DNA from: Rhodothermus sp.
Lineage (GTDB): Bacteria; Bacteroidota; Rhodothermia; Rhodothermales; Rhodothermaceae
Assembly: GCA_026989375.1 (NCBI GenBank)
Contig: JALSJJ010000002.1
Coordinates: 1-35,821, forward strand
Direction of reading: 5' to 3'
DNA: 35,821 bases
Shown piece by piece: positions 33,843-35,336 of this stretch. Numbering within the stretch: the stretch's first letter is position 1; every line of letters starts with the position of its first letter. The notes below the pieces were generated by a model that saw nothing but the letters and a program-made list of their open reading frames with translations, made no database searches and was not told the DNA's origin. Made by a program: the position numbers and the translations under genes.

Positions 33843-35336
33843 ATGGCGCGTATTACGCTTTCCTTGGACCGTCCCACAGGCAATTTCTGGATAGACACGG
33901 GACTGGTGGTGCTGATAAAGCAGTTTGGAGAAGGGGAGTATGACGTGGAAGAAATACGAGGTAAGCTTGTGAACCAGCTTGTGCAGAGGACGGGAAAATC
34001 CGGCGTCTATCTTGATCAAGTGACCGGTCAATTGCGTGAGTATGAAAAAGTGAACTGGGTTTATCCTACAAACCTTTTTATCAAGGTGGCTGGTCGTGCA
34101 CCAAAAGTAAAGGTGCGAATTGATGGCAAAACAGAGACAGTTTTCACGCAGCCACCTGTATTTGATCTGAACCTTAAGCTGCGTAGGGGCCAAGATCCAT
34201 GTGACATATGCGGTGAGGTGAAGCCTCTTACTGATGCCACGATGTGGATGTATCCTTTTGTGGTAGATCCAAAAAAGTTTGGGACATTTTATCCAGGCAC
34301 AAAACGTGGGCTTAAACTCTGTGCTCGCTGTGCGCTGGCCGGATTGGCTGGGTATCTGGGCTGGTTATGGAAAGCACAGGGGAAAGATGCACTGCACTTC
34401 TTTGTTTTTCATACAGACCTACGAGAAATGAAACGTCTGCATGAAGAAGTGTTGCGTCCCCTACAGCTAGAGGGCGCACATGGTGGTACGGCACCGGTTG
34501 CTTTTGCCGGTCCTTATTTGCATGAGACAACGTTGGGATTATTACTGGCGCTCTTTGCACATGTACCTGCCTCTGATCGGCTCAGCGACGAAGCACGAAG
34601 GCTATTGGCTTCCCTGCTGGGAGCGACGACAGATGCGCCTACTAATGCGGTTACGCTATATGCAGTTACCGGAAAACCGGGACAGGCCTTCAACATGCAG
34701 GCGCTTCGGGAATTTTCTCGGTTGCAGCCGCTATATCGCCTCTATGAGCAGTGGCGTCAGCAACTCCAGGCAATAGCACCGGACCCACATCAGCAGCTTG
34801 TTCGGGCGTTATCGCAATTTCAGCAAAGGCGAGATAACAATACAGAGACACTCTGGCGTGACAGGATTGCCCGTGCGATTCTGGAATTTGACGATCCCTT
34901 ACCGTTTGTCGAGCAATTCCTTTTTGACGTGCGGGCGCGTGAGGAGAATCCTCGGCCGCTTGTTTCTGGGACGCTTGACGTCTTGAACCATTACATAGAG
35001 GAGGTACTCGGTATGGAGCAAGAATTCAGACGCACGCTGGCAGGCTTCGGCCATGCGCTGGGTGCTGAGGCCCATGAGCACAACGAAATGGGCCTGCTCT
35101 ATAGCCTGCGCAATGCAAGAAATCCGGAGGACTTTCTCCGGGTGCTGAACGACGCACAATTTCGGCTGGAGATCACCGTGCCGGAAGCCTTGCTTCAGCT
35201 GGAACGTGGCGAGCGCATCGCCGGGGTGCCTTGGGGGCGGGTGAAAACGCTGCTCGCCATCTACGCCATGAATGCCTACCTGCGCAGAGACGCACCACGG
35301 ATGGAAACGTCGCAACCAACTGAACAGGAGGAGTAA
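33843..35336 (+). CDS. Type I CRISPR Cas8-family large subunit (Cst1/Cas8a1-like)
   Basis: 497 aa between cas6 and cas7; zinc-finger-like CDICGEVKP...CARCALAG; position and architecture. Confidence 0.8.
   Translation: MARITLSLDRPTGNFWIDTGLVVLIKQFGEGEYDVEEIRGKLVNQLVQRTGKSGVYLDQVTGQLREYEKVNWVYPTNLFIKVAGRAPKVKVRIDGKTETVFTQPPVFDLNLKLRRGQDPCDICGEVKPLTDATMWMYPFVVDPKKFGTFYPGTKRGLKLCARCALAGLAGYLGWLWKAQGKDALHFFVFHTDLREMKRLHEEVLRPLQLEGAHGGTAPVAFAGPYLHETTLGLLLALFAHVPASDRLSDEARRLLASLLGATTDAPTNAVTLYAVTGKPGQAFNMQALREFSRLQPLYRLYEQWRQQLQAIAPDPHQQLVRALSQFQQRRDNNTETLWRDRIARAILEFDDPLPFVEQFLFDVRAREENPRPLVSGTLDVLNHYIEEVLGMEQEFRRTLAGFGHALGAEAHEHNEMGLLYSLRNARNPEDFLRVLNDAQFRLEITVPEALLQLERGERIAGVPWGRVKTLLAIYAMNAYLRRDAPRMETSQPTEQEE
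35013..35336 (+). CDS. Candidate internally translated Cas11-like small subunit (107 aa) within cas8
   Basis: In-frame ATG at codon 391 of cas8 preceded by AGAGGAGGT (34997-35005) with 8-nt spacing; C-terminal segment alpha-helix-like. Confidence 0.5.
   Translation: MEQEFRRTLAGFGHALGAEAHEHNEMGLLYSLRNARNPEDFLRVLNDAQFRLEITVPEALLQLERGERIAGVPWGRVKTLLAIYAMNAYLRRDAPRMETSQPTEQEE

Follow-up and report, generated by a model that had tools for sequence, protein, structure and literature searches.

Type I Cascade complexes can obtain their small subunit, Cas11, from a start codon within the large-subunit gene, and the locus described here raises the question of whether its cas8 gene encodes one protein or two. 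The stretch of DNA that was analysed (the window) comprises 35,821 nucleotides of Rhodothermus sp. (contig JALSJJ010000002.1) and at its end covers the opening portion of a CRISPR-Cas effector operon, consisting of a WYL regulator, cas6, cas8 and cas7. A preliminary description of the window proposed that a hidden Cas11 is translated from an internal site near the 3' end of cas8. We followed this proposal through the genes of the operon, the strength and conservation of the putative start, and the predicted fold of the product.

The operon and its subtype

All four genes lie on the forward strand. At the head of the operon is an HTH-WYL/WCX regulator (32058..33098; Pfam WYL 3e-22, WCX 4e-23), the start codon of which is uncertain, followed by cas6, encoding the crRNA-processing endonuclease (33101..33835; NCBIfam TIGR01877, 1.7e-16; PADLOC Cas6b, 8e-73), and by cas8b, encoding the 497-aa large subunit of type I-B Cascade (33843..35336; PADLOC Cas8b PDLC01582, 6e-126, nearly full length). 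The last gene is a cas7 of the Cst2/DevR, type I-B (Tneap) kind (35339..35821; NCBIfam TIGR02585, 8.6e-43), cut by the contig end at 35821. The preliminary description had called cas8 'Cst1-like', a label that did not hold: PADLOC matches were all to Cas8b, no NCBIfam model matched, Cst1 or other, and Pfam gave only a sub-threshold, unrelated match, though the neighbouring Cas7 is indeed the Cst2/DevR protein of type I-B (Tneap). The components of a type I-B system (cas8b, Cst2/DevR cas7, cas5, cas6 and cas3) were all found, with cas6, cas8b and cas7 in the window and cas5, cas3 and also cas4 in the corresponding locus (L020) of a complete genome from the same genus (G003, hereafter the sister genome).

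In relatives, cas7, cas5 and cas3 follow tightly after cas8, and the order cas8-cas7-cas5-cas3 is contiguous wherever cas3 was located; no standalone cas11 occurs between cas8 and cas3 in these relatives. A search for cas3 in two loci from Bacteroidia (L010 and L014) did not find it, nor was the cognate cas5/cas3 continuation found in the window's own assembly. The preliminary statement that cas7 lies downstream with no separate cas11 is therefore right as to the adjoining cas7 and is borne out in the traced relatives, while its second half could not have been read from the window, where the contig ends inside cas7; we infer from the relatives that the window locus, too, would be without a separate cas11.

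Several features of the surrounding genomes deserve mention in their own right. The only Cas3/Cas5 matches in the window's assembly are a pair on another contig (C112:12975-16003), 35-36% identical, which evidently belongs to a second, different type I system. In the sister genome, the interval between cas5 and cas3 (L020:6220-6750) holds a gene for a DUF4258 protein (94 aa, Pfam 1.6e-25) and, after it, one for a 78-aa MqsA-like zinc-finger protein; this toxin-antitoxin-like insertion was not seen at that position in the other relatives examined, and its two genes are the only extra ones in the sister's type I-B operon. That operon is followed (G003:C1, ~2,073,000-2,089,000, spanning L032 and L020) by cas4, a type III-B operon cmr1-cmr6 that includes cmr5, a ring-nuclease-like CRISPR protein, and a CRISPR array with ~74 copies of the 30-nt repeat ATTTCAATACCAAAAAGGTGCGATTAAAAC. 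Cmr5 was considered as a source of the small subunit and set aside, since it belongs to the Cmr complex and since the internal start is kept in relatives that have no cas11 across cas8-cas3. The cas8 gene (33843-35336) has a G+C content of 53%, compared with ~64% in the stretches sampled from the sister genome, and a cas8 of this family is present in 2 of 7 genomes of the genus; together, low G+C and patchy presence suggest that cas8 was horizontally acquired.

A strong Shine-Dalgarno sequence inside cas8

The sequence AGAGGAGGT can be read directly at 34997..35005 on the forward strand, with AGA at 34997-34999 and the core GGAGGT of a Shine-Dalgarno (SD) sequence at 35000-35005, overlapping cas8 codons E386-E387-V388. 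Seven bases separate GGAGGT (eight counted from GGAGG), a gap near the optimum, from an in-frame ATG at 35013..35015 that is codon 391 of the 497 codons of cas8. Translation from this ATG would yield a 107-aa product with the stop codon of cas8, a candidate cas11b (35013..35336, forward strand) for the proposed Cascade small subunit. The positions, frame, codon number and length given in the preliminary description are all correct on reading the sequence.

Pairing with the anti-SD was calculated with the standard anti-SD sequence, assumed for both the window genome and the sister genome because the tail of the 16S rRNA was not found in either (Rfam model and 3' tail pattern). The pairing energy of the site upstream of 35013, -13.3 kcal/mol, is the best among 33 internal in-frame starts in cas8 and exceeds in strength those at the starts of cas8 (-2.4), cas6 (-7.9) and cas7 (-10.3 kcal/mol). 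For a background we sampled ten 20-kb stretches of the sister genome (200 kb, 123 genes, 55,422 codons), in which a strength of at least -12 kcal/mol was reached at 2 of 2,970 internal in-frame starts and -13 at none. The SD/start pair at 34997-35015 is thus beyond chance, and its conservation in relatives is the stronger argument. In the sister genome the per-position frequency of GGAGG is ~8 times higher between -18 and -6 relative to starts than it is farther upstream, from which it follows that Rhodothermus uses SD sequences; it does so sparsely, in a minority of genes. RNA folding around the internal start is ordinary (z -0.35), which gives no reason to invoke control of the site by RNA structure. 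Nor did a promoter scan of the region return an internal promoter on the forward strand, so that there is no support for a distinct cas11 transcript.

Conservation of the start across phyla

A scan of genome contigs recovered 14 loci, 51-68% identical, from Chloroflexota, Bipolaricaulota, Synergistaceae, Clostridia and other Bacillota, Thermosulfurimonas, WOR-3, Poribacteria and Bacteroidia, which with one same-genus locus make 15 close relatives; a search of plasmids and viral contigs found none. The alignment of 17 genes comprises the window, these 15 and one distant relative, L005 (genome G270; 24% identical). The apparent cas8 reading frame is split in two of the loci, by a frameshift near codon 80 into two overlapping frames in L014 (L014:5001-5240), possibly through an error in the assembly of a metagenome-derived genome, and likewise into two frames near codon 250 in L019 (L019:5001-5740).

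Codon 391 is ATG or GTG in all 17 aligned genes, the window and 16 relatives from about nine phyla; in the two with GTG methionine has been replaced by valine, yet the codon remains a start codon. Within the window and its 15 close relatives, GGAGGT stands at the identical position, free of insertions or deletions, in 14 of 16 genes, the two exceptions being the Bacteroidia loci L010 and L014. Over the same 16 genes, codon 391 combines a start codon (16/16) with a strong SD (14/16), and its mean SD energy of -11.1 kcal/mol is the best of 474 alignment columns, the runner-up reaching -4.6. An in-frame start with a ribosome-binding site in the 3' part of the large-subunit gene is accordingly found not just in the window but across homologues, where a lack of conservation would have told against the preliminary description.

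The start of cas7 as a natural control

The cas7 gene of the same operon has its own SD, AGGAGG, read directly at 35326..35331 on the forward strand (-10.3 kcal/mol), and its counterparts provide a comparison in every lineage. In all 14 loci that carry the internal SD, the cas7 SD is strong (-9.3 to -12.5), and it is absent in the three without an internal SD: L010, L014 and L005 (-2.4, -0.7 and +0.7, respectively), all of which retain the internal ATG despite the missing SD. Since the two SD sequences are present or absent together, the internal SD comes and goes with SD use in the lineage, the behaviour to be expected from a translation start rather than from a protein motif. In the Bacteroidia loci L010 and L014, the lack of an SD extends to cas7, cas5 and the internal cas11 start alike, with the internal ATG kept.

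It is tempting to speculate that, in this Cas8b family, the internal cas11 start follows the initiation mode of the host, the SD being fixed in hosts that use SDs and lost in Bacteroidia with the ATG kept, where Cas11 would be made by SD-independent internal initiation within a translated frame. We offer this tentatively, as an idea that may well be right but that we would not quite bet on. The less expected finding concerns the Bacteroidia loci, in which Cas11 either would be produced in the absence of an SD or has been abandoned.

Alternative explanations of the site

The site might owe its conservation to the protein, in that the SD-like string could be a by-product of a conserved Cas8 motif, K/E/Q-E-V-L/F-x-M, with no initiation taking place there. 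Because the E-V residues before the site are indeed conserved, such that protein-only constraint already yields a fairly strong SD, we shuffled codons synonymously within each gene of a set of 12 non-redundant genes that takes in both SD-less Bacteroidia loci. The shuffles averaged -7.2 kcal/mol, and in 2,000 trials none reached the observed mean of -10.7. Codon choice tells the same story at a single position: E387 is encoded by GAG in 10 of 10 SD-using non-redundant lineages, which places it at the top of 20 conserved E/K/Q columns, the others having 3-8 of 8-10. Where these ten genes share a residue, they share its codon at a rate of 0.359, compared with 0.338 expected if codons were independent; synonymous sites are therefore near saturation, and SD codons that are nevertheless fixed point to constraint and not to shared ancestry. 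A protein motif would also have to accommodate a methionine that is swapped only for a valine encoded by GTG, a start codon, and an SD that is lost exactly in those lineages whose cas7 start is without one too. It seems very improbable, on this evidence, that the string is a by-product of the motif with no initiation.

Internal initiation could instead occur at another codon and give a different small protein, for example at GTG 35142, which has the second-best SD in cas8 (-9.5 kcal/mol), or upstream of 35013; some Cas11 proteins are longer (15.1 kDa in Thermotoga maritima). Neither position is conserved in the manner of codon 391: among 16 genes, a start codon is found at codon 434 in 6 and at codon 380 in 7, together with a strong SD in just 2 and 1 of the genes, respectively; a start at GTG 35142 would, moreover, drop the first two helices of the predicted bundle, while codon 391 lies in a loop just before it. 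We consider a different start very improbable. Pausing at SD-like sequences has been proposed in general for domain boundaries, and the present site does lie at a predicted one, so that it might slow elongation to aid the folding of Cas8 domains without serving as a start. A pause leaves unexplained the invariant start codon at optimal spacing, the variation confined to ATG and GTG, and the way in which the internal and cas7 SDs are present or missing together, and we regard it as the least probable of these explanations, with hardly any weight. Internal initiation at codon 391 accounts for the site far more readily.

Predicted fold of the 107-residue product

When modelled alone with AlphaFold2, using an alignment of 15 sequences, the 107-aa product is predicted to form a helical bundle (mean pLDDT 90.2, pTM 0.80) with helices at residues 3-22, 26-33, 38-52, 58-61 and 74-91 and disorder limited to about the last ten residues. 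In the full-length Cas8 model, residue 391 falls in a loop between predicted helices 377-389 and 393-412, which places the start at a structural boundary. The C-terminal region would thus, by prediction, constitute an independent bundle of the small-subunit kind.

A Foldseek comparison of the 107-aa model with the PDB placed chains of type I-A Cascade entries, all of small-subunit length, in the best seven positions of 350,542 chains, although these matches are individually weak (E 0.5-5, best 0.54; 7tr6_D/E, 9cro/9crp/9crq). Foldseek output does not name the identity of the matched chains; judging from chain length and entries, they are most likely the Cas11a small subunit. The model of full-length Cas8 matches large-subunit chains, namely chain I of type I-B CAST Cascade 8fcj (9.4e-8) and, among type I-C Cascades, 8dfa_I (5e-4) and 8dex_I. 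Searching PDB sequences with either alignment, full-length or C-terminal, or with the protein by itself gave no meaningful hit and matched no solved structure. The preliminary description had suggested a structural comparison of residues 391-497 with known Cas11; the region is predicted to fold alone, and its best matches are type I-A Cascade chains, each of them weak.

Comparison with known internal small subunits

Internal translation of the small subunit is stated for types I-B, I-C and I-D (McBride et al. 2020, as cited in PMC10212523), in agreement with what the preliminary description took as established. In type I-B, an internal Cas11b was demonstrated in Haloferax volcanii by tagging, mass spectrometry and mutation of the start codon (PMC11899642), and three copies of Cas11b were reported in the Cascade of Synechocystis (PMC11096372). 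These share with our candidate the subtype, an in-frame start near the 3' end of the large-subunit gene, a product identical to the C-terminal domain of Cas8b, and the lack of a separate cas11 gene. They differ in that Cas8b here represents a different family, one that matches no PDB chain in sequence, in that the start here has a strong canonical SD and the candidate is known from sequence, and in that the product is 107 aa (about 12 kDa), compared with a calculated 25.5 kDa in Haloferax.

For type I-C, the small subunit is reported to be translated from an internal ribosome-binding site in cas8c of Desulfovibrio vulgaris (PMC7684278), an arrangement similar to ours, and the full Cas8 model matches the I-C chains 8dfa_I and 8dex_I; type I-C is without Cas6, however, whereas the present locus has cas6 and a Cst2-type cas7. 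The type I-B1 system of T. maritima, like ours from a thermophile, has a Cas11 predicted to lie inside cas8b1; no Cas11 was made from the predicted start in E. coli, and Cas8b1 failed to co-purify with Cascade when Cas11 was absent (PMC13199841). The silence of that start in E. coli means that a predicted site is not proof, although the site here, in contrast, is a near-perfect SD with an ATG. Finally, Cas11a (Csa5) of type I-A is similar in length and gives the best PDB fold matches of the 107-aa model, but the similarity is weak (E 0.5-5) and Cas11a is the product of a standalone gene, unlike the candidate here.

A probable gene within a gene and its meaning

Taken with the conserved start and SD, the predicted autonomous fold, and the lack of a cas11 gene in the traced relatives, the hidden-Cas11 reading of the preliminary description is well supported: we consider it highly likely that the type I-B Cascade obtains its small subunit, Cas11b, by internal in-frame translation of cas8b. 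One frame would then encode two proteins. Ribosomes starting at 33843 would produce the large subunit, Cas8b, and others, recruited by the internal SD at 34997-35005, would start at ATG 35013 and produce the 107-aa helical bundle, Cas11b. If the complex resembles those already solved, a single Cas8b and several copies of Cas11b would lie along its belly and hold the displaced non-target DNA strand during R-loop formation. We infer in this way the production, copy number and role of Cas11b at the window locus.

The case is very probably a further Cas8b family with the already known internal-Cas11 arrangement, marked by an unusually clear signal across about nine phyla, in which the internal start is recognisable from sequence alone. 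At these loci a protein would escape standard annotation, which assigns a single product to each reading frame. Hosts with and without SD use offer a natural comparison of initiation at a nested gene, and any effort to rebuild this type I-B Cascade of a thermophile may need a separate cas11b in hosts that do not use the internal start.
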